A model generated the notes under the pieces. That model was not told where the DNA came from, searched no databases, and saw only the letters and a list, made by a program, of their open reading frames with translations. Below are positions 11,929 through 30,308 of a stretch of DNA of 41,906 bases, in pieces. The stretch spans positions 1 to 41,906 of the IMG/VR virus record IMGVR_UViG_3300046674_000102; one strand, 5' to 3'. Numbering within the stretch: the first letter of the stretch is position 1; every line of letters starts with the position of its first letter. Source of the stretch: a virus. The translations under genes and the position numbers were made by a program.

Positions 11929-12022
11929 AGTGTAGAAGTGTAGGAAGTGGTGGGGGTCTGGTATTCCCTTAGGAATCTCTATAGGAATACTGAAGTGGGT
12001 ACAGAAACTACACTTCTACATT
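11929..12022 (-). repeat. 94-bp exact direct repeat, copy A
   Basis: Identical over 94 bp to 30215-30308, in the same orientation. It carries terminal 13-bp inverted repeats TGTAGAAGTGTAG (11931-11943) and CTACACTTCTACA (12008-12020), and an inner pair GTATTCC/GGAATAC (11961-11967 and 11984-11990). It is noncoding and AT-richer than its surroundings. It lies between a hairpin terminator (12087-12119) and promoter-like motifs (11873-11911), the same arrangement as copy B. Confidence 0.95.
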
Positions 12023-12086
12023 TATGCAGGTCAGATGGGCTGTGAATGGGTGGCACTCCGCCCGCTCATACACGCTGACAGCACGA

Positions 12087-12119
12087 AGGGCGCCCACCAG
12101 GTGACCCGGCAAGCGCCCT
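12087..12119 (-). terminator. Hairpin after the integrase/zinc-ribbon unit
   Basis: A 7-bp stem (agggcgc/gcgccct) with a 19-base loop lies 13 bp downstream of the zinc-ribbon gene stop. There is no strong U run. It probably ends the integrase transcript. Confidence 0.5.
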
Positions 12120-12131
12120 CTGTGACCCAGA

Positions 12132-12458
12132 TCACTCTTCGTCAAGGAAGCGGACAGCGCGAACGGCCCGCTTGAGCCCTTCAAGGCCCCCCAGCACGTC
12201 TACGCACTCCCGGCAGGTCTCACAGATACCGGCGCCCTCAATGGCTGTCCCACAGACAGCGCACTTGCCCTGACGCATGCCGGCCCGGTACGCGCGCATG
12301 GCGTAAGCCTTGTCCTCAGGGGACTTGCCCGCCATGCGTGCCGCCTGGTCCTTCGCCTTACAGGCCCGGCAGTGGCTCTGTCGCCCATCCTTGTGCTTAG
12401 GGTCCGGCGGGAAGGCTTCCAGGGGCTTCTCTTCCTTGCACTTCGTGCACGTCTTCAC
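12132..12458 (-). CDS. Zinc-ribbon protein translationally coupled to the integrase
   Basis: A 108-residue protein starting at GTG 12456-12458, which overlaps the integrase TGA as GTGA, so it is almost certainly co-translated. The N-terminal MKTCTKCKEEKPLEAFPP and SHCRACK segments form a CxxC...CxxC zinc site of the type often found in front of HNH domains, but no HNH core follows. A second cluster (KCAVC, GICETCREC) adds five cysteines. It may bind DNA and help or modulate recombination; this is inference from gene pairing. Confidence 0.82.
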   Translation of the reverse strand: MKTCTKCKEEKPLEAFPPDPKHKDGRQSHCRACKAKDQAARMAGKSPEDKAYAMRAYRAGMRQGKCAVCGTAIEGAGICETCRECVDVLGGLEGLKRAVRAVRFLDEE

Positions 12459-13948
12459 GCCAGCGCCGCCCATGCCGCCTCTTCCCTGTCTACTGCCGCC
12501 ATGTCATCCGCTGCCGGGTCTTCTACTTCGACCTTCGCCCGGTCACCCGTGGGGGTACTTCTGCCACCTGCCGGCCACAGCCTGACCACGTATCCCATGG
12601 TGTCCATCATGTCTGCCGCTGAGCCGCTCTCAAGGTCATCAGCGACCGTACGGCCAGTGTCCCGCTCTTCCCAGCGCCCAGGTTCGTCAGGAAGCTGAGC
12701 CAGCACACCACGGCGCGCGATCAGAGCCTTCATCTGACTGCGGAATCGTGTCTCATCCTCTTCACCGTCATAGAGCCCTAGTTCCCGGTCGTCCCTGAGC
12801 CTGGCAATGGTCGCTTCCACCTGGTCCCGTTCAGCGCTGTGATCAGTACCGCCTACCCAGACGCTCTCAGTCACACGCATGGTGCCGAACTTTTCCCGTA
12901 GCTCCGAGTTGACCCACGGCTCAAGCTCATCAAGGCGGATGTACGGTGCCGGCCTGTGGCGTAGCTCATTCGGACGGGCGCACTTAAAGGCCACGCGGCC
13001 ATGAGTGACCGTGTTGGTCATGTTGAAGCCACAGACACCACACTTCAGGAAGGGTTGCAGCCAGTGTGAGTCATGGCGCTTCCGGCGCTTCGACCCTTCC
13101 AGCTTGTCTAGCGCTGCCTGTAGCTCACCCCACTCAGACAGGCTCAGGACCGGCGGGAAGACCTCAAGGGGCATGCCATTATCACCACAGCGCACACGGC
13201 CGTCAGGAAGGCGCTGGTGGCCGATTAGCTGGGGGTTACGAAGCACCTGACGCACGGCATTCCCGCGCCAATAGGTCTCCTTAGCACCGTTCTTCTTGGC
13301 TGTAGCCCCCCGCTCCCGTGACGTCTGGACCTTCTTTTCGTTCAGCCAGATAGCCAACTGGGTGGATGAGTAGCCGTCATCAACCACCTTGCTGACCATG
13401 TGCTTGATGATCGGCACGGCTTGCTTGTCCCTGACCAGGATGCGCCCCTTGCCAGACGGGTGAGTCGCTGTTGTGACTCCGAAGGGGAACCGGCCACCTA
13501 CGAACTTGCCCTCAGCCAGAAGAGACCGGCGCGCGTCTAGCGACCGCTCCTTGATCATGTCCCGCTCAAGGCGTGCGAAGACGGCAATGATCTCCGCCAT
13601 GGCACGGCCGATAGGGCTACTCAGGTCCATGGGCTCAGTGACGGACGTCATGCTCACCTTGGCAGCCTGGCAGCGCTCCATCAGGTCAGCGAACGCCACT
13701 GTGCTACGGGCCAGCCGGTCAATCTTGTAAAAGACAATCGCGTTATATCGCGACAGATCCTTGAGCATCTGGCGCATTCGTGGTCGGTCGTCAGGGTCCA
13801 CAGCGCCGCTGACACCTTCGTCCGCGAAGACCTCAACCACTGTCCATCCACGCTGCTTGCACAGCTCCTGACAGTGGGCAATCTGCCTGGCGACGCTGGT
13901 AGTAGCCTCAGTGACACGGCTGATTCGGGCATAGATAGCCACTCGCAT
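12455..13948 (-). CDS. int: Large serine integrase
   Basis: A 497-residue site-specific recombinase. The N-terminal resolvase domain (about 2-140) has YARIS with catalytic Ser10, RQIAHCQELCKQRGW, the YKIDRLARS motif and SSPIGRAMAEIIAVFARLE. A recombinase domain follows, then a zinc-ribbon domain (CGVCGFN and FKC) and a C-terminal coiled-coil-like region. This is the phiC31/Bxb1 class that integrates phage DNA at attP x attB without host factors. The ATG at 13946-13948 follows AGGAGGGG; an upstream in-frame start adds unlikely sequence. It is the fifth gene of the leftward unit driven from about 15.55 kb, behind a strong hairpin, and is followed by a coupled zinc-ribbon gene. Confidence 0.96.
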   Translation of the reverse strand: MRVAIYARISRVTEATTSVARQIAHCQELCKQRGWTVVEVFADEGVSGAVDPDDRPRMRQMLKDLSRYNAIVFYKIDRLARSTVAFADLMERCQAAKVSMTSVTEPMDLSSPIGRAMAEIIAVFARLERDMIKERSLDARRSLLAEGKFVGGRFPFGVTTATHPSGKGRILVRDKQAVPIIKHMVSKVVDDGYSSTQLAIWLNEKKVQTSRERGATAKKNGAKETYWRGNAVRQVLRNPQLIGHQRLPDGRVRCGDNGMPLEVFPPVLSLSEWGELQAALDKLEGSKRRKRHDSHWLQPFLKCGVCGFNMTNTVTHGRVAFKCARPNELRHRPAPYIRLDELEPWVNSELREKFGTMRVTESVWVGGTDHSAERDQVEATIARLRDDRELGLYDGEEDETRFRSQMKALIARRGVLAQLPDEPGRWEERDTGRTVADDLESGSAADMMDTMGYVVRLWPAGGRSTPTGDRAKVEVEDPAADDMAAVDREEAAWAALA

Positions 13949-14034
13949 GGGGCCCCCCTCCTGACGGTTGTGGGTCCCTACACTACGCCTGGCCGTACTG
14001 TCGTTAGTCACAGCGAAGAGGCTAGCAGACGCAA

Positions 14035-14079
14035 GTGCGCCCCTTCCAGAGCCGGCCGGCATCACAGGAAGGGGCGCAC
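14035..14079 (-). terminator. Strong hairpin upstream of the integrase
   Basis: A 13-bp perfect inverted repeat (gtgcgccccttcc/ggaaggggcgcac) with a 19-base loop lies nine bases after the stop at 14088. It would end or attenuate the transcript from 15.5 kb before the integrase, so integrase may have partly independent control. Confidence 0.75.
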
Positions 14080-14087
14080 ATGGTTGT

Positions 14088-14309
14088 TCAGCTTGCTACT
14101 GGTGTAGACCTGCCTTCAACGACTGCCAGCCGGTACAGGCCCCATAACCGCTGCCCCTCTTCACACCCCTCCGTAGGGTCAGCCCCAGCAAGGCAGCCGG
14201 CACAGGGTGCTGCTTCGTGGACGCTACGGGGCTGTGCATGGTCCAGCCACGCTGTAAAGGTGATCCACGGAGCCCCCAAGACGACGTCTTCCGGGGGCAG
14301 GGCCGTCAC
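14088..14309 (-). CDS. Small hypothetical protein with CxxC
   Basis: A 73-residue protein starting at GTG 14307-14309, overlapping the previous stop as GTGA. It contains FTAWLDHAQPRSVHEAAPCAG followed by CLAG and CEEG, a possible small metal site, and two Trp residues. No family was recognised. It is the last gene before the hairpin at 14035-14079. Confidence 0.72.
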   Translation of the reverse strand: MTALPPEDVVLGAPWITFTAWLDHAQPRSVHEAAPCAGCLAGADPTEGCEEGQRLWGLYRLAVVEGRSTPVAS

Positions 14310-14632
14310 GTTGTCACCTCTGCCATGAGCTGTGCGTATAGTTCCGCCTGGCGGTCAACTTCGATCACTAGGCGTGCCCATGACTCAGCGCTGACAGTGT
14401 TGTCCAGCGCTTCGTACGTCCCCCCTTCGAACAACTCAGGGTGATCATCTACCAGCCCCAGGACATCCCAGGGCGCTGTTGCGTACCACTGGGCCGGATC
14501 GCACTGCCGGACACTCTCCGAACGGAAGAAACCCCATCCGGGTGGCAGACTTGCGGTCGCTTGCGCCTGCCCCGGCATGGGGTCTGGTGCAGCGACATTC
14601 TCAACGCAGAAGCGTTGTCCGCTGGCGGTCAT
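14306..14632 (-). CDS. Hypothetical protein of the lysogeny-side operon
   Basis: A 108-residue protein. ATG at 14630-14632 was chosen because AGGA lies nine bases upstream; an in-frame GTG at 14668 is the alternative. It is acidic, with tryptophans in a central PPGWGFFRSESVRQCDPAQWY segment and a helical C-terminus (ESWARLVIEVDRQAELYAQL). No DNA-binding motif is evident. It overlaps the next gene by GTGA. Confidence 0.68.
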   Translation of the reverse strand: MTASGQRFCVENVAAPDPMPGQAQATASLPPGWGFFRSESVRQCDPAQWYATAPWDVLGLVDDHPELFEGGTYEALDNTVSAESWARLVIEVDRQAELYAQLMAEVTT

Positions 14633-14696
14633 GTTCGATTGTCCTAACTCAACGTCAGGCCCGGTCACTCCGGACCAGGTGAGCTAGCGTACGCCC

Positions 14697-14885
14697 TCAG
14701 TCACTCACCGTGTAGGTGGTATGACCGACTTTCACCGATCCGTGGCCACTCTCAAGGGCTGTGGCACCATGGGCCGCTTCCTGACTCAGGGTGTCCTTAC
14801 AGAGGTGATGCCAGCCTTCGGACATTTCACGAAGGCGCTCAGTCAACTCAGCGCGGGTGCCTGTCTCTTGCATGGGTGTGGTCAT
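14697..14885 (-). CDS. Small hypothetical protein
   Basis: A 62-residue protein (MTTPMQETGTRAELTERLRE) with a helical charged N-terminal half and a polar C-terminus ending HTTYTVSD. The ribosome site is weak. It lies 18 bp after the gene at 14904. Function is unknown. Confidence 0.6.
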   Translation of the reverse strand: MTTPMQETGTRAELTERLREMSEGWHHLCKDTLSQEAAHGATALESGHGSVKVGHTTYTVSD

Positions 14886-14903
14886 GCAGGCAGGTTACCG
14901 GCG

Positions 14904-15485
14904 TCATGCGCTGCGAAGGCCGTACAGGTCCGGCAATGAGCCTTCGTGGGGCACGTCTTCCTTGTGGCGCGCATGAGGCGCCGGCTGGCTCGGTATGGCG
15001 TTGAGCCTCTTCCCTGATGCGGCACGCCTCTTATCCAGATCACAGGCAATCGGCAGGCCGTACCGGGCCTCAAAACGCTTCTCTTCGTAGTACTGGCCCG
15101 TCCGTAGGTAGTACGTACGGATGGCCTCCTTCCAGCCACTCAGGTACTCAGCCGCGCGGTGGTAGTCCCTGAGGTCTACTGACCACTCCCACTCGCGCAT
15201 CCCGACCATGAGCCCCGTGGTTACTTCCCAGGCGCATATGCGGAACCTGTCTCCTATGCAGTTGCGCAGTAGGACACGTGTAACCGTCCGGCCATACGTG
15301 TGCACCAGTGATTCACACTCACTGTCACTGTATGCGTACTCCCGGGCCAGATCGCCCGGGTATGTCGCCGATTCGCCCCATGACCACCCACCAGCCGGTA
15401 GCGGGACCGGCACAGCGAGCGTAAGACGAATGTGCGGCATTGGTGCAAGATCCACAGAACTGATCATGACGTGCCATCCCCCCAT
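14904..15485 (-). CDS. First gene of the integrase-side operon, unknown function
   Basis: A 193-residue protein whose ATG (15483-15485) overlaps the stop of a 9-codon leader ORF as TGATG; a GTG at 15497 is also possible. The N-terminus looks beta-rich (MPHIRLTLAVPVPLPAGGW). The middle is Tyr/Trp-rich (MREWEWSVDLRDYHRAAEYL, then KEAIRTYYLRTGQYYEEKRF) and the C-terminus basic. No helix-turn-helix was recognised, although its place directly behind the only canonical host-type promoter makes it a candidate lysogeny regulator. That role is unproven. Confidence 0.68.
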   Translation of the reverse strand: MGGWHVMISSVDLAPMPHIRLTLAVPVPLPAGGWSWGESATYPGDLAREYAYSDSECESLVHTYGRTVTRVLLRNCIGDRFRICAWEVTTGLMVGMREWEWSVDLRDYHRAAEYLSGWKEAIRTYYLRTGQYYEEKRFEARYGLPIACDLDKRRAASGKRLNAIPSQPAPHARHKEDVPHEGSLPDLYGLRSA

Positions 15486-15514
15486 CAAACCTGACACTCC
15501 GTTGCGTCACTCAT
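15485..15514 (-). CDS. Possible 9-residue leader peptide
   Basis: ATG at 15512-15514 opens a frame encoding MSDATECQV and stops with TGA that overlaps the next ATG (TGATG). It would begin about ten bases from the expected transcript start and has no ribosome site. It could control translation of the downstream gene, or be chance. Confidence 0.3.
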   Translation of the reverse strand: MSDATECQV

Positions 15515-15532
15515 GCTAAGCGGAGTGGCTGA

Positions 15533-15561
15533 ATCCTTTGCTTATTCATGGGGGGTGTCAA
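15533..15561 (-). promoter_or_regulatory. Canonical host-type promoter for the integrase-side operon
   Basis: On the minus strand TTGACA (15556-15561) is followed by a 17-base spacer and AAGGAT (15533-15538). This is close to the consensus for the main Streptomyces sigma factor (TTGACA/TAGGAT) and points into the gene at 15485. It is the best bacterial promoter seen in the window. Confidence 0.75.
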
Positions 15562-15710
15562 TACATCTTGTGTCTGTTCTGTAAAGAACTTCACACACCC
15601 CTTGCCTAGCGCTGAGTGACCAGCCGCGCGCCTAAGGTTACTTCGAACGGCTGTGCGAAGCAATGGCATATGCCGCTGACACGTACACGTCAGGACAAGG
15701 CAAAAGAAAA

Positions 15711-15738
15711 AGCCCCCAGTCCCGAAGGGCCAGGGGCT
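15711..15738 (-). terminator. Terminator of the early region
   Basis: A stem (agcccc/ggggct, inner gccct/aggg) is followed on the minus strand by TTTTTCTTTT. It lies directly after the last early gene (stop at 15749) and separates early genes from the integrase-side promoter. Confidence 0.88.
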
Positions 15739-15748
15739 CATCTGTGGG

Positions 15749-15967
15749 TCACGAATGCTTGGGACTGGGCAGCGGGCTCCGCCATCCTTCCCGGTCCGTA
15801 TTGGGCTCCCAGCGGGCCGGCTCAGGAGTGACTACCGGGCACAGGTTCGGGCAGTCGTTCAGGGTCGGGGCCTGGGCCGGCGAAGCGGCAATCACAGTGC
15901 CCATTAGGCAGGCGGCTACGCCAGTGACCACGGTCCCGGCACCAACGGCTATGGCACGAAGGCTCAC
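15749..15967 (-). CDS. Small secreted or membrane-anchored protein
   Basis: A 72-residue protein starting at GTG 15965-15967 (GTGA overlap with the previous stop). A basic N-terminus and a hydrophobic segment end at SPAQA, a good signal peptidase site. The mature region has CPNLC and is proline-rich. It could be exported, or anchored if uncleaved. It is the last gene before the terminator. Role unknown. Confidence 0.68.
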   Translation of the reverse strand: MSLRAIAVGAGTVVTGVAACLMGTVIAASPAQAPTLNDCPNLCPVVTPEPARWEPNTDREGWRSPLPSPKHS

Positions 15968-16224
15968 GAGGGCTTCACTCCCAGAATTTCGGTCTTGCGC
16001 TCTTTGGTGCCCGGCGCACTCTCCCACCAGGAAGCCGGGTCAGCGTCGTCAAGGGCGGAGTCAATGCCCTTCCGCAGCACGTCGGCCCAGTAGTGCGGCA
16101 CACGGATGATCTTGACGATGCCGCCCCGGGTCTCCACCAGGACTGCCGCGTACGCAAAGCCTTCGTCCCCGTCTTCCATGGTGACGCTGATCACGCGCTT
16201 GATGGTCTCCGTCAGGCCAGTCAT
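15964..16224 (-). CDS. Small hypothetical protein
   Basis: An 86-residue protein. ATG 16222-16224 was chosen because GGGGAGG lies seven bases upstream. The sequence MTGLTETIKRVISVTMEDGD followed by AAVLVETRGGIVKIIRVPHYW looks like an alpha/beta mini-domain. No family was recognised. It is coupled to the secreted-protein gene. Confidence 0.7.
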   Translation of the reverse strand: MTGLTETIKRVISVTMEDGDEGFAYAAVLVETRGGIVKIIRVPHYWADVLRKGIDSALDDADPASWWESAPGTKERKTEILGVKPS

Positions 16225-16259
16225 CGCGTTGCCTCCCCTAGTCGCTGTGTAAAGCCCCA

Positions 16260-16282
16260 GGGGCCGGAATCGAACCGGCCCC
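16260..16282 (-). terminator. Hairpin that mimics a tRNA T arm
   Basis: A perfect 8-bp stem (ggggccgg/ccggcccc) encloses loop TTCGATT when read on the minus strand, exactly like a T-psi-C arm. The rest of a tRNA is absent and a gene ends at 16294, so this is likely a terminator or attenuator, or a tRNA fragment. Confidence 0.55.
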
Positions 16283-16293
16283 ATACCGCCTGG

Positions 16294-16533
16294 CTACTCG
16301 ACCGGGCCAACACGCTGTATCCAGTCACGGACCGTGTGAACTCCCTTGCCGATTCGGTTCTTACCTTCGGCAGTCACGTAGTAGCCCACCGTGGCAACCC
16401 GAGTCTGGAACACGTTCCCGTTCACATCCCGGCGTGCAACGAAGAAGTCCCAGACCCTTTCACCGGCCGGTGACGCGTAGCCTCCCTGTGACTCAACGTC
16501 AGTGATCAGGGCCTGTATCGTCTTCGGGATCAT
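16294..16533 (-). CDS. Small hypothetical protein (possible winged-helix fold)
   Basis: A 79-residue protein starting MIPKTIQALITDVESQGG (ATG 16531-16533; AAGG upstream). The layout of helix, VWDFFVARRDVNGNVFQTRV strands and a C-terminal GKGVHTVRDWIQRVGPVE helix could be a small nucleic-acid-binding fold. No confident family. It lies between the deaminase and another small gene. Confidence 0.68.
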   Translation of the reverse strand: MIPKTIQALITDVESQGGYASPAGERVWDFFVARRDVNGNVFQTRVATVGYYVTAEGKNRIGKGVHTVRDWIQRVGPVE

Positions 16534-16610
16534 GTCCTGTACCTTCCTGGGGTTCCGTTCGCTTGCGAGACCAACTATGGCATGACGTAGGTGGTGCACA
16601 CAAGGGGCAA

Positions 16611-17087
16611 CTACGGTTTTGCGTAGTCCGTTTCAGGCGTGACCACCCGGGCGATGCCGGCAGCCCGTATCAGCGTCCAGCAACCCGGGCACGGCTCACG
16701 CGTGGTGTACAGGGTGCTGCCTGCAAGTTCGGCCGGCGCAGTGTGCCTGATGGCATTGCGCTCAGCGTGGTCCGCTATGCAATTGCTGTAGTCGCTGTCA
16801 GGGGCTACCGCATCCGGGCACGGCCAGCCCTTTCCGCACAGGCAGTTGTGGAGCCCCACCAGGTTGGGAAGCGGAATCCGTCCGTGAACACCCCTAGGGC
16901 AAGCACCAGCGCTAGCGCATCCGGGAACCCCAGCCGGCGCACCGTTGTAGCCCGTGCCGCGTACCTCATGCGCTGCATTGACCAGGATGGCGCCCACAGC
17001 GGAACGCGTGCAGTCAGCGCGAGTGGCCACCCATGCTGCGCCGGCCAGGAAGTAGGCATCCCAGTTCGGTCGGGTACTGCTGCTCAT
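16611..17087 (-). CDS. Deoxycytidylate (dCMP) deaminase
   Basis: A 158-residue zinc enzyme converting dCMP to dUMP, the substrate of thymidylate synthase. It has the deaminase signature: HAERNAI supplies the zinc His and proton-shuttling Glu, and EPCPGC supplies the two zinc cysteines. An inserted region has extra cysteines (CASAGAC, CLCGKGWPC), as in other phage dCMP deaminases. The ATG at 17085-17087 overlaps the previous stop (ATGA). With ThyX and the dNMP kinase it forms a dTTP supply route. Confidence 0.93.
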   Translation of the reverse strand: MSSSTRPNWDAYFLAGAAWVATRADCTRSAVGAILVNAAHEVRGTGYNGAPAGVPGCASAGACPRGVHGRIPLPNLVGLHNCLCGKGWPCPDAVAPDSDYSNCIADHAERNAIRHTAPAELAGSTLYTTREPCPGCWTLIRAAGIARVVTPETDYAKP

Positions 17088-17287
17088 ACCTCTTCAACCT
17101 GCACTTTCACGCGGAACAGCTTGACGTCCCCGCCACATGCAGGGGTCTCGTATGACACGGTCACGTGGTCTTCACCTTCGCCAACCAGCCTGATACGGCT
17201 TTGCGGTCCGTGGTCGGGGAATGTGTAACCAGGCAGCCACTCAGCCACTGTCCCCAGCGCATCGTCTCTCACGCTGTCAGCGCTCAC
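17084..17287 (-). CDS. Small hypothetical protein upstream of the dCMP deaminase
   Basis: A 67-residue acidic protein with GTG start at 17285-17287 behind GGGAG. It has a strand-rich sequence (RIRLVGEGEDHVTVSYETPACGG) and ends KVQVEEV. Its stop overlaps the deaminase start, so the two are co-translated. No family was recognised. Confidence 0.7.
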   Translation of the reverse strand: MSADSVRDDALGTVAEWLPGYTFPDHGPQSRIRLVGEGEDHVTVSYETPACGGDVKLFRVKVQVEEV

Positions 17288-17465
17288 GTGCTATCTCCCT
17301 TCGCCAGAACGCGTCTTCGCGCCGCCGTACCAGACGCCGAAACCATGCGCCCCTATCGCCTTCGTCCGCGTACCTGTGGGGGAAGATGCGACTGTTAGCG
17401 CTGACCCCCTTGGAACGCCTTCTGTGCCACCGTGCGCGCCCTGTACCGGGTACCGGGTCACTCAT
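17277..17465 (-). CDS. Small arginine-rich hypothetical protein
   Basis: A 62-residue, very basic protein (WHRRRSKGVS, RRLVRRREDAFWRREIARER) with ATG at 17463-17465 behind GGAGAG. It overlaps the start of the next gene by 11 bp. It could bind nucleic acid. It opens the unit after the ThyX terminator. Confidence 0.6.
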   Translation of the reverse strand: MSDPVPGTGRARWHRRRSKGVSANSRIFPHRYADEGDRGAWFRRLVRRREDAFWRREIARER

Positions 17466-17480
17466 GTCTCTCCTTACGCC

Positions 17481-17514: not shown

Positions 17515-17525
17515 CGGATGTGCGG

Positions 17526-18227: not shown

Positions 18228-18253
18228 TAGCCTCTCTCCATCTTGAGGATGAC

Positions 18254-18285: not shown

Positions 18286-18289
18286 AATG

Positions 18290-23035: not shown

Positions 23036-23161
23036 CTAGCGGCTGAGGAGAAGGTCAACTTCCCACTCAGCCAGCGGATAGCGCCCTACCATGTGCCCCA
23101 GTGCGCACTTGAGGTTGTGGGTCCGCCACAGTGCCCACATCACGCGGAGTCGCCTAGTCAT
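23036..23161 (-). CDS. Small basic protein coupled to the primase-helicase
   Basis: A 41-residue protein (MTRRLRVMWALWRTHNLKCA, ending WEVDLLLSR). Its ATG at 23159-23161 lies inside the last codons of the primase gene (ATGACTAG overlap) behind GGAG. The N-terminus is basic and amphipathic. Unknown role. Confidence 0.65.
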   Translation of the reverse strand: MTRRLRVMWALWRTHNLKCALGHMVGRYPLAEWEVDLLLSR

Positions 23162-25643
23162 CGTCACTCCCAAAGATTCCGGGTCCGGTCTTCGAAGTGG
23201 TGTTAGTGAGTCGAATGCCCACCAGCGCCATGCCCTTAGCGGCACGCGTCCGGGTGATGCCCCGCTCTTCCATGGCGCTATAGAAGGCCCGACGCGTCCA
23301 ACGCTCCTTGGCCGGCAGGTTCTCCGCTTCGCACCAGTCCAGATAGGCATTGAAGGCTTCGGACCCATCAAGCCGGGCAGCATCATCCTTGACCGTGACG
23401 CTGGGAATAGTCGGGTCTTCCGAGTAGAAGCCGGCCAGCGCGTCAGAGGTCTCCTTGTACTCCTTCGTAGCCGCGCTGATGGAAGCCGGGTCCCGGAGCC
23501 CTTCGGCGAACCAGGCAACAGCCCCGCGAACAGCCCATGCGGCAATGCCCTGGGCCTCCGCTTCCAGCTTCTTGTCAAGGCTGTAGTCCCGCTCACTGGG
23601 CGCGAAGTAGCGAGTGAAGGGGATCATCTTGACCCGGCGCCAGAGACCTTCATCCTGGCCGCGAAAGCGGGGCTTATGGTTCGTCGCCAGCATCAGGAAG
23701 AAGCTGGGCTTGAACTCGAAGAACTCTTGCCGCAGGAACCGGGCAGCGATCATGTCCTTGCCCGTGACGCGCTTGAGAATGGCTTCGCTCATGGGCTTAC
23801 CGCTCTCGCCTTCGCTCGCCATGACCAGGCGTGAACCACGCAGCGCCGCAATGTCGTTGGGGATGCCGCCGCTGGCCTTCTCTTCGAACGTGGCAAACGG
23901 TGTGGTCTTCGAAATGGTCCGGAAGACGTTTGACAGCGTGTCGGTCAAAACTGACTTGCCGTTGGCGCCCTTGCCCCACAACACAGCGAAGCACTGCTCA
24001 TCCGTGTAGCCCGTGATGCCGTAGCCGCACAGACGTTGCATGTACGGGACCAGGTCCGGGTGTTCCGGGAAGATCTCCGTCATGAACTGTTCCCAGCGCG
24101 GGCAGGCTGCCGCCGGGTCATAGTCGATGCCAAGGCAGTAGGTCAGCATGTCTTCTTTGCGGTGCGGACGAAGGCGACCAGTGCGAAGCTCCACGGTGCC
24201 ATTGCGGAAGCTGAGAAGGTCATGGCGCGCGTCAAAGTCGGATGCCCCGACGAAGACACTGGGAACGGCCTTTAGCTCCGTCATCAGGTCATCAATGCGG
24301 CTGGTGGTCGCAAAGGGCTTTGCCTCTTTGACCTTTCCGGCCAGCATCAGCGCTGCCGCCATGCGGTGGATCTCCTGGCGCACCCGGACTTCGCTGGGCA
24401 CCCACACGCGTCCGTCCCAGACATAGAAGCCCAGGCCCCGGGCCCAGCGAATGCGCCCTTCGGACCAGGCCACTAGCGCATGCGCGTTCATGGCGTCCGT
24501 GTCCCCGTAGCGCTCAAGGAGGCCGGCCAGAATGCGGGCAGCCTCAAGCCCCTGGTCCCGACTGACAACGTCCGTGCCGGTCGCTTCGCTGAGTTCCTCG
24601 GAGACCGCTTCGCGTGCCGCCTCACGCTGGTCAGCAACGGGCTTAGCCGCCTTGACAGCCTTGTGCAGCGCCAGAGCAAAGCCCAGGGGCTCAGACTCGC
24701 GCCACTCCGTCAGGTCCGTCTTCGGTCCCAGCTTCGGAATGGCCAGCGCATGCACGGCGATGCCATAGGCTTTCAGCCCTTCGGCCAACGTGGCGTTGAA
24801 GCCCTGCCCGGCGCTGTCAACGTCGCCACAGGCAATGACCATGGTCCCGCGCAAGCCTTCGGCAAGCTCCGCCAGCAACTCAGGGTTGCCCACCAGGGCA
24901 GCGCCACGGACCATGACGACGTCATAACCCACAGCAACCGCTGTAAGCCCGTCTCCGGGGCCTTCCGTGACCAGGGTGACCCCATAGCCGCCCTGCCCCC
25001 GGAAGACGCCATAGGGAGCCCAGCGGAAGCCCTCAGGGTTACGTAGGCTCAGCCAGCGTCCCGGGCACTCCCCCGTGATGTCCCGACCCTGCAAGCCACG
25101 GGGCTTCCCCCAGAAGTCGCACAGCGGAACGGTCACACGCGGGAACGCCTTGAAGCCACGGGTAAGGAACGGGAACGGGTCACGGACGTCAGGCCCGTCA
25201 TAGCCGATACCCAGTTCATACGCCGTGTCAGCGTCCATGCCGAAGCGGTCAACCAGGTAGCCAGCCGCATCCGCAGCCAAGGTGCTTGCGGCATCGCCTA
25301 GCCGGTCACGTGCGTCGTCCACGTAGCCAGCAAGGGCAGCGGTCTGGGCAACACCTACCATGGCCGGCTTCTCCTTCGGCACCGTGGCACCTTCGCCTTC
25401 GGCGTTGAACAGGTCCGGCCATGCCAGGCCAGCCGCCTTGACCACCTCAGCGGACTTGCAGCCCACACGGCACGTCAGACGTACCTTGTTGTCATCCCCG
25501 CGCCAGATACGGAGCGAAGGATCAGAGTCTCCGTGCGACGGGCACAGCGCGATATAGCCCCCGTCTTCGTGCTCACTCACCCCGTTGAAACGGTCCAGAA
25601 GATCAATGAAAAGCACGTAAGCGCCCCTCTCTTGAGTTGTCAT
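23154..25643 (-). CDS. Primase-helicase fusion
   Basis: An 829-residue replication protein. The N-terminus has a zinc-ribbon primase motif (CPSHGDSDPSLRIW, then TCRVGC). A Toprim domain follows (VTEGPGDGLTAVAVGYD, then ACGDVDSAG). The C-terminal half is a D5/P4-type superfamily 3 helicase with Walker A GKGANGKS, the acidic MASEGESG motif and sensor LATNHKPRF. One protein should therefore prime and unwind. The ATG at 25641-25643 has no ribosome site and lies only a few bases after the promoter-like motif at 25648, so the transcript is probably leaderless. A second motif copy is embedded near its 3' end. Confidence 0.94.
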   Translation of the reverse strand: MTTQERGAYVLFIDLLDRFNGVSEHEDGGYIALCPSHGDSDPSLRIWRGDDNKVRLTCRVGCKSAEVVKAAGLAWPDLFNAEGEGATVPKEKPAMVGVAQTAALAGYVDDARDRLGDAASTLAADAAGYLVDRFGMDADTAYELGIGYDGPDVRDPFPFLTRGFKAFPRVTVPLCDFWGKPRGLQGRDITGECPGRWLSLRNPEGFRWAPYGVFRGQGGYGVTLVTEGPGDGLTAVAVGYDVVMVRGAALVGNPELLAELAEGLRGTMVIACGDVDSAGQGFNATLAEGLKAYGIAVHALAIPKLGPKTDLTEWRESEPLGFALALHKAVKAAKPVADQREAAREAVSEELSEATGTDVVSRDQGLEAARILAGLLERYGDTDAMNAHALVAWSEGRIRWARGLGFYVWDGRVWVPSEVRVRQEIHRMAAALMLAGKVKEAKPFATTSRIDDLMTELKAVPSVFVGASDFDARHDLLSFRNGTVELRTGRLRPHRKEDMLTYCLGIDYDPAAACPRWEQFMTEIFPEHPDLVPYMQRLCGYGITGYTDEQCFAVLWGKGANGKSVLTDTLSNVFRTISKTTPFATFEEKASGGIPNDIAALRGSRLVMASEGESGKPMSEAILKRVTGKDMIAARFLRQEFFEFKPSFFLMLATNHKPRFRGQDEGLWRRVKMIPFTRYFAPSERDYSLDKKLEAEAQGIAAWAVRGAVAWFAEGLRDPASISAATKEYKETSDALAGFYSEDPTIPSVTVKDDAARLDGSEAFNAYLDWCEAENLPAKERWTRRAFYSAMEERGITRTRAAKGMALVGIRLTNTTSKTGPGIFGSDDD
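23202..23219 (-). promoter_or_regulatory. Promoter-like motif inside the primase-helicase 3' end
   Basis: Minus-strand GGCATTCGACTCACTAAC. It is preserved inside coding sequence (residues GIRLTN) and points to the 41-residue gene, the methyltransferase and the polymerase. Confidence 0.7.
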
Positions 25644-25647
25644 GTGG

Positions 25648-25667
25648 GGGTGAGTGAGCCGAATGAC
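25648..25667 (-). promoter_or_regulatory. Promoter-like motif for the primase-helicase
   Basis: Minus-strand GTCATTCGGCTCACTCACCC, ending five bases before the ATG codon of the primase-helicase. Confidence 0.7.
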
Positions 25668-25816
25668 TAGCGCCGGTCCCTGCGCCGTTTCATGCGGGCA
25701 AGGATCAGCGCGTTAGATGGGACAATCCACGTATGCCAGCCCACAGCGTCCTTCCAGCGGGCTCCGTGGTGCGCCCTCAGCACTCCACAGGCGGCACATG
25801 AGTACGGTTCGTGCAC
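25667..25816 (-). CDS. Small basic protein with CxxC
   Basis: A 49-residue protein starting at GTG 25814-25816 (HEPYSCAACGVLRAHHGA), with AAGGGG five bases upstream. It ends in an arginine/lysine-rich tail (RMKRRRDRR). The CAAC pair plus His residues could bind zinc and the tail nucleic acid. An in-frame GTG six bases earlier is less well spaced. It lies between the HNH gene and the primase-helicase. Confidence 0.62.
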   Translation of the reverse strand: MHEPYSCAACGVLRAHHGARWKDAVGWHTWIVPSNALILARMKRRRDRR

Positions 25817-25838
25817 GAACACCCCTTAGCGCCTAGCA

Positions 25839-25893
25839 ACTTGTCGGATCAGGGCACTTGCTTAGGTCCGGCAAGTCGCCTGATCCGGCAAGT
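25839..25893. other. Large nested stem-loop with repeated ACTTGCCGGA units
   Basis: The arms acttgtcggatcagg (25839-25853) and cctgatccggcaagt (25879-25893) pair over 15 bp with one mismatch. Inside, cacttgc pairs with gcaagtc. The unit TCCGGCAAGTC occurs twice as a direct repeat. It begins at the HNH stop codon and may be a terminator, an iteron-like origin element or an operator. Confidence 0.65.
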
Positions 25894-26339
25894 CAGAACG
25901 GGTAGCCCGTGCCGGCCGCTAGCGCCGGATCAGGGCCGAAGGTCAGCGACCACTCAGCAAGAGTCTTCGCGCCCTTGGAGAGATTGCAGCCGGCGCACGC
26001 GGGAACGATGTTGTGCTCCGCATCAGCCCCGCCCTTGCTCAGCGGGTGAACATGATCAAGGTGCGTGGCATGGGCGCCGCAGTAGGCACAGGCATGGCGC
26101 CAGCGCGCAAGCACTTCCGTACGGCTGTAAGCCACGTGGTCTACACCGTAGGTCTCTGCCCGGCGCTTGTGCGTGACCCTGTGACGTTCGTCGGGGCTCA
26201 TCCGGGCGTAATAGCCCTTGATGTGCTTGCGCTGAGCATTGCGCCGGCATGATGCGCACGCTGAGCTAGGCTTCTTGGCCTTCCCGGCAAGGAACTGGTC
26301 AGCGGGCTTTCCCCGCCCACATAGTCGACAGACCTTCAT
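25893..26339 (-). CDS. HNH endonuclease with N-terminal zinc-ribbon
   Basis: A 148-residue nuclease. The N-terminal MKVCRLCGRGKPADQF and CASC motifs form a zinc-ribbon of the HNH-associated type. The HNH core reads CAYCGAHATHLDHVHPLSKGG, then NIVPACAGCNLSKGA. The ATG at 26337-26339 overlaps the previous stop (ATGA). The core is similar to the HNH protein at 18668. It is likely a free-standing homing-type endonuclease. Confidence 0.92.
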   Translation of the reverse strand: MKVCRLCGRGKPADQFLAGKAKKPSSACASCRRNAQRKHIKGYYARMSPDERHRVTHKRRAETYGVDHVAYSRTEVLARWRHACAYCGAHATHLDHVHPLSKGGADAEHNIVPACAGCNLSKGAKTLAEWSLTFGPDPALAAGTGYPF

Positions 26340-26491
26340 TGCTGTGCAACCTCCGTGAGTGGTCCCCAGAGCCGTTCAAGGACGTCTAGCGACGGGAGCC
26401 ATGAGTGAGACTTCAGCTCCACCCATGCGCCATCGTCGCCGGATTCCTCCCAGACATTTCCGTCAGAGTCCTGCATGCGACGTGCGGTCAT
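26336..26491 (-). CDS. Small acidic hypothetical protein
   Basis: A 51-residue protein (MTARRMQDSDGNVWEESGDD) linked at both ends by ATGA overlaps (26488-26491 and 26336-26339). It is Trp-rich (four Trp) and strand-like. Unknown function. Confidence 0.72.
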   Translation of the reverse strand: MTARRMQDSDGNVWEESGDDGAWVELKSHSWLPSLDVLERLWGPLTEVAQQ

Positions 26492-26670
26492 CGCAAATCC
26501 CTTCCAAACCAACGGATCTCAGCGCCACGGGTCAGCGCTGCCATCAGGGCATCCGCGTACCGGGGCCAGTCTTTGCGGGCAGTGACGCCGGCCCTGAGCC
26601 AGACGGTTTGCCCGGCGCCTGCCTGCCTCACATCACCCAGGGCGGGGGCAGCCTCAGCCGAAATGACCAC
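26488..26670 (-). CDS. Small hypothetical protein, ribosome site within palindrome 7
   Basis: A 60-residue protein starting at GTG 26668-26670 (VISAEAAPALGDVRQ). The AGGTGG ribosome site three bases upstream is the 3' arm of palindrome copy 7. It ends in basic WFGRDLR. No family was recognised. It overlaps the next gene by ATGA. Confidence 0.68.
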   Translation of the reverse strand: MVISAEAAPALGDVRQAGAGQTVWLRAGVTARKDWPRYADALMAALTRGAEIRWFGRDLR

Positions 26671-26674
26671 GGGC

Positions 26675-26696
26675 CACCTACGAACTTTCGGAGGCC
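26675..26696. promoter_or_regulatory. 22-bp palindrome, copy 7 (over a stop codon and a ribosome site)
   Basis: Half-site CACCTACGAA, centre CT, then TTCGGAGGCC. It covers the last codons of the gene at 26678 and the ribosome site of the next gene. Confidence 0.7.
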
Positions 26697-26983
26697 ACAG
26701 GGGCGAAGCCGGCCGTCACCAGGCGCACATGTTCCGTGGTGATCCACTGGGGCACGGGGGTCTTGCGCTTAACGAAGCCAGACTCAACGCCAGTCGGCTG
26801 GACGCGAAGCACGGGCACCAGGACCATGCCCACACCCTCTACCCGGGCCTGTTTCGCTGTGGCTTCCAGCACCACAGCATCAGCCATCCGGACACGGTTG
26901 CCCTGCCGGGCGCTGTAGGCCACCAGGTCACCCGGGTGAAGCTCATTGCCGGCGTAGTCGGTTACAACCCCACGCTTTGCCAT
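26678..26983 (-). CDS. Small hypothetical protein, strand-rich
   Basis: A 101-residue protein (MAKRGVVTDYAGNELHPGDL followed by VAYSARQGNRVRMADAVVLE). The GNELHPGDLVAY segment resembles small SH3-like barrels often seen in phage early proteins. ATG at 26981-26983. Function unknown. Confidence 0.72.
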   Translation of the reverse strand: MAKRGVVTDYAGNELHPGDLVAYSARQGNRVRMADAVVLEATAKQARVEGVGMVLVPVLRVQPTGVESGFVKRKTPVPQWITTEHVRLVTAGFAPVASESS

Positions 26984-26996
26984 TGGGCTTCGCCCC

Positions 26997-27155
26997 TCAT
27001 TCCGTACTCAGGTCAGCGTGAAGGGCACGAACCTGCACTTCGTCAGCGTGGTCAAGTCCTTCGAATACAAGTAGTGAATTGAGCCCCCGGCGGAGCCATG
27101 ACAGCTCTTCTGGTGTCACCTCAAGCTCAACGTTCTTGGCTTTCATGGTTGCCAT
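26997..27155 (-). CDS. Small helical hypothetical protein
   Basis: A 52-residue protein (MATMKAKNVELEVTPEELSW) with ATG at 27153-27155 and AGGAGGTG upstream. It is predicted helical, acidic and Leu-rich. A Met three codons in is an alternative start. Unknown role. Confidence 0.7.
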   Translation of the reverse strand: MATMKAKNVELEVTPEELSWLRRGLNSLLVFEGLDHADEVQVRALHADLSTE

Positions 27156-27231
27156 TGGCGTAGCCACCTCCTAACGCCGAATGCCCGGCTCCCAGCGGCG
27201 CATCAGCGCTACCAGGAACCGGGCACAGGGG

Positions 27232-27483
27232 TTAGTACTGCGGCGCGTCGTCCAGCGCATCGTCAAGGGTGGGGGTCTCATCCTCGTACACGCTGATGAG
27301 TCGCACGTCGCCGGTCGTGTCCAGCTTCTCAGCCTTGACGTTCCGGCCCTTGCCGGTGACAACCACGCCGGCGAAGTGACCCACAGCGCGCCGGGCCTGG
27401 TCCACACCAGGGGCGATCACGACAGCGTCAACGAACTCTCCGGGGCCCGGACGATCAGTGCGAGAAACGTTGTAGATAGCCAT
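27232..27483 (-). CDS. Small hypothetical protein
   Basis: An 83-residue protein (MAIYNVSRTDRPGPGEFVDA) with AGGAGAG before ATG 27481-27483. An alpha/beta N-terminal part (VVIAPGVDQARRAVGHFAG) is followed by an acidic tail (EDETPTLDDALDDAPQY). No family was recognised. Confidence 0.74.
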   Translation of the reverse strand: MAIYNVSRTDRPGPGEFVDAVVIAPGVDQARRAVGHFAGVVVTGKGRNVKAEKLDTTGDVRLISVYEDETPTLDDALDDAPQY

Positions 27484-27495
27484 GCGTGTTCTCTC

Positions 27496-27678
27496 CTAGG
27501 TATAAGCCGGGTCCCCGATGGGCTCCGGGTCAAGGTTGAAACCGCGTCGCGTGCGCTCCGCAAGAACGAACGGCGCGTAGTACGGGTGGAACAGCCAGAG
27601 CGGTTGCCGCAGATACTCATCAGTCGCGAGTCTCATAGCGGCAACCGTCTGGGTTCGCTGGGTCTGGCTCAATGGCAC
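27496..27678 (-). CDS. Small hypothetical protein downstream of the Gp3-like gene
   Basis: A 60-residue protein starting at GTG 27676-27678 (PLSQTQRTQTVAAMRLATDE) with GGGGG upstream and aromatic residues in the centre (PLWLFHPYYAPF). Unknown. It probably belongs to the same transcript as the Gp3-like gene. Confidence 0.65.
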   Translation of the reverse strand: MPLSQTQRTQTVAAMRLATDEYLRQPLWLFHPYYAPFVLAERTRRGFNLDPEPIGDPAYT

Positions 27679-27690
27679 GGGGTTTGCCCC

Positions 27691-28395
27691 CTAGCGCTCT
27701 TCGGCAATGGCGTCCGCATAGGCGCCCAGTACCGTCAGGACCGGCTTCTTGTACTTGATCAGTTCGCCGTCATCGTTCGTGAACTCTTCCTGAACGATCT
27801 CCAGACGGCACAGGGCTTCGCCGGACACGTCCTCAAGGGCGTTCTTGACGTCGTTCACGGTCTCAGCGAACTGCCAAGAAGTAGCGATCCATCGACCGAC
27901 ACCCAGTTCGTAGCCCAGGCCGGCCAGCCGGAAGGTGACCACAATGTTGGGGCCCGGAGCCTTCTTGGCCCGGTTCTTCGCCTTCCGCTCCTTGAGCGTG
28001 CCAGAGCAACCGCACAGCTCGCCCCGGTCATCCTGCATCAGGCTTCGAACGCCGTCGCACTCATGGATGGGAAGCCCCTGAGGACCCCACATCATGAACT
28101 TGTCCTCAATGGCGTCAGCGCCACTCAGAACGATCTCAACAGAGGACGCGTCCGTAAGGACCTCGTAGTTGTGATCCTTCTCCGGGAAGGCTTCCGCCGG
28201 CGTACCGCCCATCAGCTCAGCGATTCCGGCTGCCGCCTCTTCGCCGGCCACCAGTACACGGAACTTCGCCAGGCTGACCGGCTTGCGGTTGCGCTGCATG
28301 CCGGTGCGGAAGCTGAACGCGTACTCCGGGCGAACGAACTTCGCTTCACGCTCTTCGCGCTCAGGGTCGGCAAAGATGCTGCTGTCCATGGCCAC
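27691..28395 (-). CDS. Gp3-like protein, candidate recombination directionality factor
   Basis: A 234-residue protein resembling the Gp3-like family named after the phiC31 directionality factor. Shared features as I know them are an N-terminal SIFADPE, FRTGMQRNRKPVSLAKFRV, AELMGGTPAEAF, YEVLTDASSVEIVLSG, MWGPQGLPIHECDG, a short Cys cluster (CGCSG), VVTFRLAG and a final KKPVLTVLGAY. The phiC31 protein binds integrase and switches it to excision. GTG at 28393-28395 behind GGGGGAG is preferred over ATG two codons later. It lies 14 kb from the integrase behind two promoter-like motifs, consistent with lytic-only expression. The family call is from memory of the pattern. Confidence 0.65.
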   Translation of the reverse strand: MAMDSSIFADPEREEREAKFVRPEYAFSFRTGMQRNRKPVSLAKFRVLVAGEEAAAGIAELMGGTPAEAFPEKDHNYEVLTDASSVEIVLSGADAIEDKFMMWGPQGLPIHECDGVRSLMQDDRGELCGCSGTLKERKAKNRAKKAPGPNIVVTFRLAGLGYELGVGRWIATSWQFAETVNDVKNALEDVSGEALCRLEIVQEEFTNDDGELIKYKKPVLTVLGAYADAIAEER

Positions 28396-28512
28396 TTAGG
28401 GTCTCCCCCTACTTCGATTCTCTGCGAATTTGTCAGGGACCGGACGGGGACAACCCTCACGTGCGCAACGCATCGGATCAGGTTTCCGGCCGTCCGGCCC
28501 CTTCGAAGTGGG

Positions 28513-28586
28513 TCTAGGGGGTCGAATGCCCGCCCCGTTTCCCACGCTGTTTCGCCTTACGAAGTGGGTCTAGGGAGTCGAATGCC
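28513..28586 (-). promoter_or_regulatory. Pair of promoter-like motifs for the Gp3-like operon
   Basis: Copies at 28513-28530 (GGCATTCGACCCCCTAGA) and 28569-28586 (GGCATTCGACTCCCTAGA) are each followed by CCCACTTCG. The conserved block is therefore about 27 bp long. They lie 118-191 bp upstream of the start, just below a strong terminator. Confidence 0.75.
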
Positions 28587-28610
28587 AGCGGACGGAGCCC
28601 CAACGCAGAA

Positions 28611-28648
28611 AAGCCCCCCAGCATCCCGTCAGGGACACCAGGGGGCTT
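28611..28648 (-). terminator. Terminator of the nuclease operon
   Basis: A stem (aagccccc/gggggctt) with an inner tccc/ggga pair is followed by TTTTCTG on the minus strand. It lies directly after the 21-residue ORF at 28655. Confidence 0.85.
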
Positions 28649-28654
28649 CGCTTC

Positions 28655-28720
28655 CTAGCCGCGACAGGTGGTGCACAGGCCGCTCTTCTGGGGGTCACAT
28701 AAACAGTTGGGACCCTTCAC
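28655..28720 (-). CDS. 21-residue cysteine-rich miniprotein
   Basis: GTG at 28718-28720, behind GGGCGG, encodes KGPNCLCDPQKSGLCTTCRG with four cysteines in a CxC-CxxC arrangement, enough for one zinc site. It sits between a gene stop (28736) and a terminator, so it is in the transcript. Its small size makes the call tentative. Confidence 0.42.
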   Translation of the reverse strand: MKGPNCLCDPQKSGLCTTCRG

Positions 28721-28735
28721 GTTGTCCGCCCTTCG

Positions 28736-28918
28736 TCAGGCCCGGGTCCTTCCCGGGTTGCCCAGTAGTAGACCCAGCTTCGTGCCCAGGCGCTCAAGCT
28801 CCGGGACGTCGTCACTGAGACTGGCAGCGATCTCCGCTTCGATGGCCAGTTCAGCCGCTTCGGACTCCGTCAGATGAACGCTCAGCGGACGATGCCGGCC
28901 CGTGCGGGTAGCAAGCAT
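28736..28918 (-). CDS. Small acidic helical protein
   Basis: A 60-residue protein (MLATRTGRHRPLSVHLTESE, then AAELAIEAEIAASLSDD). ATG at 28916-28918 lies six bases behind AAGGAGGG. The N-terminus has a PLSVHLTESE pattern like short ribbon-helix-helix strands, but the evidence is thin. Unknown role. Confidence 0.7.
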   Translation of the reverse strand: MLATRTGRHRPLSVHLTESEAAELAIEAEIAASLSDDVPELERLGTKLGLLLGNPGRTRA

Positions 28919-28920
28919 GG

Positions 28921-29106
28921 CTAGCCCTCCTTAACGAAGTCAGCGGACACGTCCTCAGTGCCCGTGACCCTGTTGACACTCAGCGTGGCTGACGGATAGC
29001 GCCCCTTGAGACCGCCCAGGATGCGCCTGGTGTGTCGCGCGTCGTCCCCGGTACGGTGCTCAGCGCGTCCAGAGCGGTAGCGAATGGTGATGATGAACTC
29101 AGGCAC
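28921..29106 (-). CDS. Small hypothetical protein
   Basis: A 61-residue protein starting at GTG 29104-29106 (PEFIITIRYRSGRAEHRTGD). A beta-alpha-beta pattern is visible; it ends SADFVKEG. Two bases separate it from the next gene. Its end (VSADFVKEG) resembles the end of its upstream neighbour (VSAVIHLREG), suggesting related folds. Confidence 0.7.
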   Translation of the reverse strand: MPEFIITIRYRSGRAEHRTGDDARHTRRILGGLKGRYPSATLSVNRVTGTEDVSADFVKEG

Positions 29107-29109
29107 GGC

Positions 29110-29298
29110 CTAGCCTTCCCTCAGGTGGATCACAGCGGACACGTCTTCGAGCTTGATGAACAGCGGGGAGGGACCGGTAAGCCCCTGCCACGTCAACCGT
29201 GTAAGCTCACCGCCCGTAGACGCTGCCGAGACCTCTTCGCCGGTCAGATCGAAGTGCGCTCCGCCCCTCAGGAAGACGCGCACAGTGTGCTGAGCCAT
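29110..29298 (-). CDS. Small hypothetical protein
   Basis: A 62-residue protein (MAQHTVRVFLRGGAHFDLTG), ATG 29296-29298, three bases after the nuclease stop. It is strand-rich and ends FIKLEDVSAVIHLREG. Function unknown. Confidence 0.72.
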   Translation of the reverse strand: MAQHTVRVFLRGGAHFDLTGEEVSAASTGGELTRLTWQGLTGPSPLFIKLEDVSAVIHLREG

Positions 29299-29301
29299 GA
29301 C

Positions 29302-30162
29302 CTAGCCCCTTCTCTCAGTGCCGGTCAGCTCTTCGCGGGAAGACGCCAGCGGGGAACCCAGAGCCTTGCGCGACGCGATGCGCTCCCAGTCCAGCGTCTG
29401 GCGAAGGTGCAGGAAGTAGCGGAACGCTGCCTCAAGCTCCGCCTTGTAGACCGGGACCAGGGTCCAGCCCTCAGGCGTGATGTGCAGGACCACGGCGCCA
29501 TCAAAGGCCGGCATGGGCTCTTCCGTACCGTCCGGGTCGATGATGCGGTCAGCGAAGGCGTAAGCGGCCATCTGAAGAGCGACGCTGGCCCATAGGGACT
29601 TGGACGTCTTCCAGTCGGCAATCACATCCACCCACACGGCTTCGCCGGACGCGTTGTCAGGGTCCAACGTCCATGTTCCGTCATCCTTGAGGATGACCCT
29701 GAGCTGTAGCCACGCGTCGAAAGACCCTGCGTAGCCGTGGGTATCGGACCAGGCCACGTCTTCGGCGCGCACCAGGACCGGCTTGACCGCGTTCAGGAAG
29801 TCCCGGAACTGGGCCCGGTACGGCTCTAGGTCCGGGTGCTGCCGACGAAGCGCCTGGCCCCGGATCATCCGCTCAAAGAGGTCATGCGCCTTCGAGCCAA
29901 TGTCGCTGCGAGAGCGCGTGTACCGATAAGCAGCGCCGGCAAGCCACTTCTTGGCCCCCGGCCGGTCCCGGTCCGCCATGCGCTGTAGGTAGTCGATGCT
30001 GTCAAGCGCCAGATCAGCGGCCATGTTGGCGGACCAGCGCTGTAGGAATTCCTTGGGAAGCATGCCCACCGTGACTGTCACGCTAGGGAGTCGCTTCGCG
30101 GGCTCAATGTCCCGGAAGTAGACCCGACTGCCGCCCTTCTCTTCGTTGTGAACCTTCGCCAT
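29302..30162 (-). CDS. PD-(D/E)XK nuclease, RecB/Cas4-like exonuclease
   Basis: A 286-residue protein. The C-terminal catalytic region shows GYAGSFDAWL (first acidic residue), VIADWKTSK (D-x-K core) and QMAAYAFA (the QxxxY motif of RecB/Cas4 nucleases). The N-terminal helical part (GSKAHDLFERMIRG) contains the conserved G..H segment. It likely trims double-stranded DNA ends for replication or recombination. ATG at 30160-30162 follows GAAGGG. It is the first gene behind promoter-like motif and 94-bp repeat copy B. Confidence 0.85.
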   Translation of the reverse strand: MAKVHNEEKGGSRVYFRDIEPAKRLPSVTVTVGMLPKEFLQRWSANMAADLALDSIDYLQRMADRDRPGAKKWLAGAAYRYTRSRSDIGSKAHDLFERMIRGQALRRQHPDLEPYRAQFRDFLNAVKPVLVRAEDVAWSDTHGYAGSFDAWLQLRVILKDDGTWTLDPDNASGEAVWVDVIADWKTSKSLWASVALQMAAYAFADRIIDPDGTEEPMPAFDGAVVLHITPEGWTLVPVYKAELEAAFRYFLHLRQTLDWERIASRKALGSPLASSREELTGTERRG

Positions 30163-30195
30163 GTGATGACCCTTCTGTTAGCTCTACAGAAGGGG

Positions 30196-30213
30196 TCTAG
30201 TGAGTCGAGTGCC
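30196..30213 (-). promoter_or_regulatory. Promoter-like motif for the nuclease operon
   Basis: Minus-strand GGCACTCGACTCACTAGA, 34 bp before the nuclease ATG. The 94-bp repeat begins one base upstream. Confidence 0.72.
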
Positions 30214-30214
30214 G

Positions 30215-30308
30215 AGTGTAGAAGTGTAGGAAGTGGTGGGGGTCTGGTATTCCCTTAGGAATCTCTATAGGAATACTGAAGTGGGTACAGAAACTACACT
30301 TCTACATT
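30215..30308 (-). repeat. 94-bp exact direct repeat, copy B
   Basis: Identical to 11929-12022 over all 94 bases. Terminal inverted repeats TGTAGAAGTGTAG and CTACACTTCTACA and the inner GTATTCC/GGAATAC pair are intact. It is flanked by a terminator on one side (30341-30372) and a promoter-like motif on the other (30196-30213). Confidence 0.95.

Follow-up and report, generated by a model that had tools for sequence, protein, structure and literature searches.

Why would a virus keep two identical copies of a short noncoding sequence at separate places in its genome, and what reads them? The question is raised by the 41,906-nucleotide stretch of viral DNA analyzed here (IMG/VR record IMGVR_UViG_3300046674_000102, positions 1–41,906; the whole stretch is hereafter referred to as the window), in which a 94-bp element at 11929–12022 recurs at 30215–30308 with 100% identity, the match stopping sharply on both sides. 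I propose that each copy is very probably the binding and assembly site of a P4-alpha-like primase-helicase encoded by the phage, and that the two copies therefore form a paired replication origin.

Within each copy, 13-bp terminal inverted repeats (TGTAGAAGTGTAG and CTACACTTCTACA) enclose an inner pair, GTATTCC and GGAATAC (11961–11967 and 11984–11990 in one copy, 30247–30253 and 30270–30276 in the other). Each 13-bp arm consists of two TGTAG iterons with an 8-bp period (TGTAGAAG TGTAG), and TGTAGNNGTGTAG is found four times in the window, every time in an arm of the element, where shuffled sequences give an expectation of 0.01. The element has a GC content of 42.6%, compared to 64.5% in its flanks and 62.4% in the window, and both copies are noncoding. 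Together with a 127-bp overlap of the contig ends, it is the sole exact repeat of at least 20 bp in the window. I looked for a target-site duplication at both copies, and none was seen. These recomputed properties agree with the initial annotation of this DNA, which had described the identity, the terminal and inner inverted repeats, the low GC content and the lack of a target duplication. The parts of the two copies are as follows:

30215..30308, minus strand: element copy 1, on the exonuclease side, 94 bp; syntenic in Rowa, phiC31 and other relatives
30294..30306, minus strand: left arm of copy 1 (in the sense of transcription), two TGTAG iterons with an 8-bp period
30217..30229, plus strand: right arm of copy 1, two inverted TGTAG iterons
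30247..30276, minus strand: AT-richer central dyad of copy 1, GTATTCC...GGAATAC, a putative melting core
30313–30319: degenerate TGAACAG box beside copy 1
11929..12022, minus strand: element copy 2, preceded by the integrase and endonuclease VII genes and followed by the tRNA genes; syntenic in relatives
12008..12020, minus strand: left arm of copy 2, two TGTAG iterons
11931..11943, plus strand: right arm of copy 2, two inverted TGTAG iterons
11961..11990, minus strand: central dyad of copy 2, with the same putative melting role
12027..12033, minus strand: TGACCTG box, flanking copy 2 on one side

The window is a Rowavirus-like Streptomyces phage of the phiC31 type, written in reverse, its genes lying on the minus strand. 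In the sense of transcription, copy 1 (30308–30215) is preceded by the repressor gene and a hairpin, and followed by a promoter-like motif and the exonuclease gene, the homologue of phiC31 gene 1. Upstream of copy 2 (12022–11929) lie the integrase gene, the endonuclease VII gene and a second hairpin, and downstream of it a further occurrence of that promoter-like motif and the tRNA genes. Given these positions ahead of the exonuclease and tRNA genes, the pair brackets the early region. Both copies have the same orientation, with a GC-rich hairpin on one side (the two folding at −24.6 and −28.9 kcal/mol) and the GGCATTCGACTC promoter-like motif, labeled family D2, on the other:

30336..30374, minus strand: GC-rich hairpin upstream of copy 1, putative terminator
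30182..30216, minus strand: putative early promoter-like motif (family D2) immediately past copy 1 and ahead of the exonuclease gene
29302..30162, minus strand: Cas4-type exonuclease gene (gene 1 homologue), the first gene downstream of copy 1
12082..12122, minus strand: GC-rich hairpin upstream of copy 2, putative terminator
11859..11893, minus strand: putative early promoter-like motif (family D2) between copy 2 and the tRNA genes

The initial annotation had placed each copy between a terminator and a promoter. Its position and orientation are borne out, but a strict terminator scan and a sigma-70 promoter scan gave no hits, and the two names therefore rest on the hairpin shape and on the recurrence of the motif. 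The two gaps that hold the copies are probably not transcribed.

In order to find counterparts, the stretch upstream of the exonuclease gene was compared with the rest of the same genome. Of the named phages, the first 22 to be examined have Streptomyces or Arthrobacter hosts and include phiC31, BT1, TG1 and SASD1; every one of them has a second copy (that of Shady is marginal, with an E-value of 0.008). Three more phages, of Arthrobacter and Curtobacterium, are also paired, as are 22 of 24 near-complete IMG/VR viral contigs, where the second copy lies 16.4–20.0 kb downstream of the exonuclease start; in G028, one of the two contigs lacking it, 9.8 kb are unread. Among the relatives, copy 1 stands ahead of the exonuclease gene and copy 2 15–32 kb downstream. 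The same search found no pair in Eula, and a set of prophages adds little, since most are near-identical to the viral contigs. A whole-genome scan for tandem-iteron dyads in phiC31, Rowa, the window and G002 returned exactly two sites in each, the known ones. Close relatives are thus paired, rather than carrying the single-copy, poorly conserved counterparts that the initial annotation had considered. In Stromboli and Dismas (L203, L207), which are Microbacterium phages, near-identical iteron repeats of 44–50 bp are separated by ∼15.6 kb, and the iteron itself is quite different (AGGGCAAGT AGGGCAGTT).

The element sequences of different phages are often barely alike, but their layout is constant: TGNNG iterons, mostly with an 8-bp period, point forward in the left array and are inverted in the right one, around a semi-conserved, AT-richer core or dyad. 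The outer iteron edges are 89–91 bp apart in 29 of 37 contigs, and ∼100 bp apart in Tbone and JasmineDragon. A TGACCWG box is found within 30 bp to the left of 33 of 67 elements and to the right of none of the 67 (background 0.008 per 30 bp), and this one-sidedness makes the element directional. Since counterparts of unrelated sequence occupy the same two places in relatives, and no target duplication is present, the miniature mobile element suggested by the initial annotation is ruled out. More broadly, the exact identity and the terminal inverted repeats of the window copies would suit a mobile element, a recombination site (att or cos) or an assembly duplication, but diverged syntenic pairs exist in many independent genomes, copy 2 lies past the integrase gene at its 3′ end, and in Rowa the copy stops 1.8 kb short of the genome end, making any explanation of this type extremely improbable.

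The initial annotation also suggested an RNA role, in which two transcripts would begin with a structured RNA. Such an RNA, for which the good folding of both strands of the element speaks (z-scores of −4.5 and −5.2), could take the form of a leader, an attenuator or a put-like antiterminator made from both sites. It is disfavoured, because the element is located upstream of the promoter-like motif, and because the iterons are conserved while the base-pairing is not: the arms are short direct iterons in variable register, whose pairing is often imperfect. Rfam scans gave no match for the element (tRNAs alone pass the gathering threshold, and the matches below it are chance), and the variation of the element follows a DNA-binding wing, as described below. 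I therefore see next to no likelihood in an RNA role.

The two copies of one genome are 71–78% identical in Rowa and 62–85% in most others, compared to 100% in the window. For Vash and Lilbooboo, as for Sebastisaurus and RemusLoopin, like copies are more similar between the two phages than the two copies are within a genome, and concerted evolution as a general rule was rejected on these comparisons. In the window the copies have clearly been homogenised, as is likely for TG1 and G002 too. Perfect identity had been taken to imply either recent copying or strong constraint. By their conservation the iterons are evidently under lasting constraint, but the identity over the full 94 bp reflects recent homogenisation in the window phage, because a copy is often closer to its counterpart in another phage than to its partner in the same genome.

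To identify the protein that reads the element, the phages were grouped by iteron (TGACG, TGTAG, TGTCG or TGCAG), and the alignment columns of early proteins were tested against the group. Out of 2,580 columns in nine early proteins, the best predictors by accuracy or mutual information are residues 805 and 800 of the primase. Residue 800 is K in 42/42 phages with TGACG, and R in 30/30 with any other iteron. Residue 805 is I in 39/42 phages with TGACG, M in 19/20 with TGTAG, Q in 5/6 with TGTCG and N in 4/4 with TGCAG. A sliding-window comparison likewise peaks at the primase C-terminus. As a control for kinship, a primase tree was built without the C-terminus. It contains eight independent, supported pairs with an iteron switch, and K800 switched along in 8/8 (p = 0.008); when this phylogenetic test is applied to 2,462 columns from eight early proteins, the first four ranks go to primase residues 800, 805, 802 and 801, all of them in the wing of the C-terminal winged helix. 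A natural swap is provided by L093, which is nested in a TGTAG clade with R-M primases, yet has a K-I primase and TGACG in both copies. In Arthrobacter-type phages outside the original sample, K800 accompanies TGACG or GGGACG wherever the iterons are legible, and R-M accompanies TGTAG or TGCAG in two.

This covariation strongly supports the primase as the putative binding partner of the element. A phage sigma factor or repressor might bind it instead, the element then being an activator, sigma or repressor site; it does lie upstream of early promoters, and some sigma and repressor columns correlate with the iteron class too. After phylogenetic control, however, these columns fall far below primase 800 and 805, and the repressor-type palindromes belong to a separate, scattered family (D1) with no member inside the elements, so that a partner of this kind is very unlikely. 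In L177 and L196, the primase has K800 and W805, and the putative iterons begin with G rather than T (GGGACG), a hint that the first base of the iteron may be contacted by residue 805.

The primase in question is encoded as follows:

23154..25643, minus strand: P4-family primase-helicase gene, 829 amino acids, D5_N / SF3 helicase, with a C-terminal winged helix bearing R800 and M805; proposed initiator

Its membership of the P4 family is indicated by TIGR01613 (247 bits, for a cut-off of 108.7) and D5_N (104 bits), and a tblastn comparison with P4 alpha gives an E-value of 2e-6 over residues 476–807, spanning the helicase and the C-terminus. The AlphaFold model of residues 737–815 (pLDDT ∼80–88) has the helix-helix-wing arrangement of a winged helix, in which residues 800 and 805 are on two neighbouring strands of the wing. 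Its top fold match in the PDB is the DNA-binding domain of RFX1 (Foldseek probability 1.00), a protein that reads DNA through its wing. A profile of the primase C-terminus had no match among PDB sequences.

From the initiator family, the anatomy of the element and the P4 system, I infer that the element acts as an origin. The covariation suggests that the winged helix at the primase C-terminus, and chiefly its wing, would read the TGTAG iterons of the inverted arms. Subunits would then assemble on both arms, whose outer edges are observed to be ∼90 bp apart. By analogy to P4, the SF3 helicase would melt the central dyad, which is richer in AT, and the first primer would be made by the Toprim-type primase part, in a direction that the asymmetric core and the TGACCWG box may determine. 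Extension of this primer would fall to the family A polymerase encoded by the phage. The two copies may be needed, or useful, as two origins, or as an ori with a crr-like partner as in P4. This evidence supports two of the candidates listed in the initial annotation, the origin pair and the site bound by a replication activator, which merge into a single one, a site of the phage's own primase-helicase.

The maintenance of the pair at equivalent places despite sequence change also favours an origin, as does its transcriptionally quiet site between hairpin and promoter-like motif. Several observations weigh against it. GC skew at fourfold sites does not switch at either copy. The RFX1 match has an E-value of 0.03, 1ka8 is absent from the 50 best fold hits, and an hhalign comparison of the primase and P4 alpha C-termini is non-significant, though RTRAAKGM pairs with KRHTKQGI. 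R800, with a GG wing loop, is found together with TGACG in six phages of an Arthrobacter/Curtobacterium lineage (L168, L172, L176, Donkey, L167 and L189). A universal residue code was rejected because of such out-of-sample exceptions, and since these six GG-loop R800 phages use TGACG, the code is lineage-dependent. Finally, L108, L111, L115, L121, L240 and L241 have no element ahead of the exonuclease gene. L239 is likewise listed among the phages and prophages without one, and in four of these I or A replaces the basic primase residue 800.

Covariation points to a binding partner, and says nothing of its purpose. The primase could thus bind the elements for gene control, through autoregulation or the timing of the exonuclease and tRNA/late-side operon promoters, with the true origin elsewhere, and both copies are indeed immediately upstream of promoter-like motifs. 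I consider this unlikely: only 2 of the 7 promoter-like motifs have an element, the primase gene itself has none in front, and a fixed 90-bp dyad with an AT-richer core would be an unusual operator, while P4 uses such iterons for replication. A dual role, in replication and in gene control, is possible.

Other features of the window were noted. The seven promoter-like motifs (minus strand, GGCATTCGACTC-CTAGACC) are at 11859, 18653, 23188, 28499, 28555, 30182 and 33494, and the motif is present in Rowa too; they are probably the early promoters of the phage, of a type outside the coverage of the sigma-70 scan. A 26-bp palindrome (∼CACCTCCGAAAGTTCGTAGGTGG) recurs throughout the genome in at least nine copies, at 3674, 6696, 8897, 18257, 20314, 22285, 26673, 33564 and 38191. 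These resemble the phiC31 repressor operators, with a different sequence (there CTACTCACGTGAGTAG). An identity of the element with such an operator (CIR type) was rejected, as the scattered palindromes constitute the D1 family, separate from the element. A tRNA gene at 11657–11743 (minus strand) was reported with a two-base anticodon and is a tRNA by Rfam score too; Rowa has seven tRNA genes at the equivalent position. Lastly, positions 1–127 are an exact repeat of 41780–41906. This probably reflects a k-mer overlap left where the assembly closed into a circle, and the phage genome is therefore essentially complete, at ∼41.78 kb.

Taken across the phages, it seems fairly likely that the phiC31, BT1, TG1 and Rowa types and the Azeevirinae, and probably Dismasvirus, share a two-part origin of equivalent dyads around the early region, in which wing and iterons change together, the phages repeatedly switching between private specificities by a partly readable code. 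phiC31 is a workhorse of Streptomyces genetics, yet the searchable literature, which does not include the original phiC31 genome paper, yielded no prior account of its replication origin or of the paired element. The analysis provides precise sites, a proposed initiator and a testable code for ∼100 phages (K/I for TGACG, R/M for TGTAG, R/Q for TGTCG and R/N for TGCAG). It opens the questions of how two equivalent origins cooperate, of how two distant sites and one protein switch specificity jointly, and of whether private origins keep co-infecting phages apart.

Known origins share parts of this arrangement. In iteron origins, such as that of the lambda O system, short repeats next to an AT-rich region are bound by an initiator encoded by the phage or plasmid; here, in contrast, inverted arrays occur twice per genome, and the initiator is fused to helicase and primase. 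SPP1 has two initiator-binding origins in one genome, oriL and oriR, but its initiator is not known to be related. Like the present element, pRN1-type origins are inverted-repeat origins of ∼100 bp beside replication genes, conserved more in architecture than in sequence and associated with a winged-helix replication protein (PMC4234260). They differ in having an archaeal-type primase and a stem-loop without iterons, as opposed to iterons, a Toprim-like primase and two copies. In P4, the winged helix of alpha binds repeats at the origin, and unwinding and priming follow (PMC4234260). The ori and crr of P4 are mutually dissimilar, crr containing two direct repeats, whereas the copies described here are equivalent and separated by 15–32 kb; they span a near-constant 90 bp, have a central dyad, and carry iterons that vary between phages. 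The P4 record has 8-bp ori type 1 repeats both in ori and in the two 120-bp crr repeats, two of them forward and 9 bp apart, followed by inverted ones, and the elements described here are laid out likewise. The two systems have in common a homologous initiator, with a C-terminal winged-helix origin-binding domain known for alpha (PMC4234260), and short 8-bp iterons, 9–11 bp apart and in both orientations, in units of ∼120 bp at two separate places in the genome.

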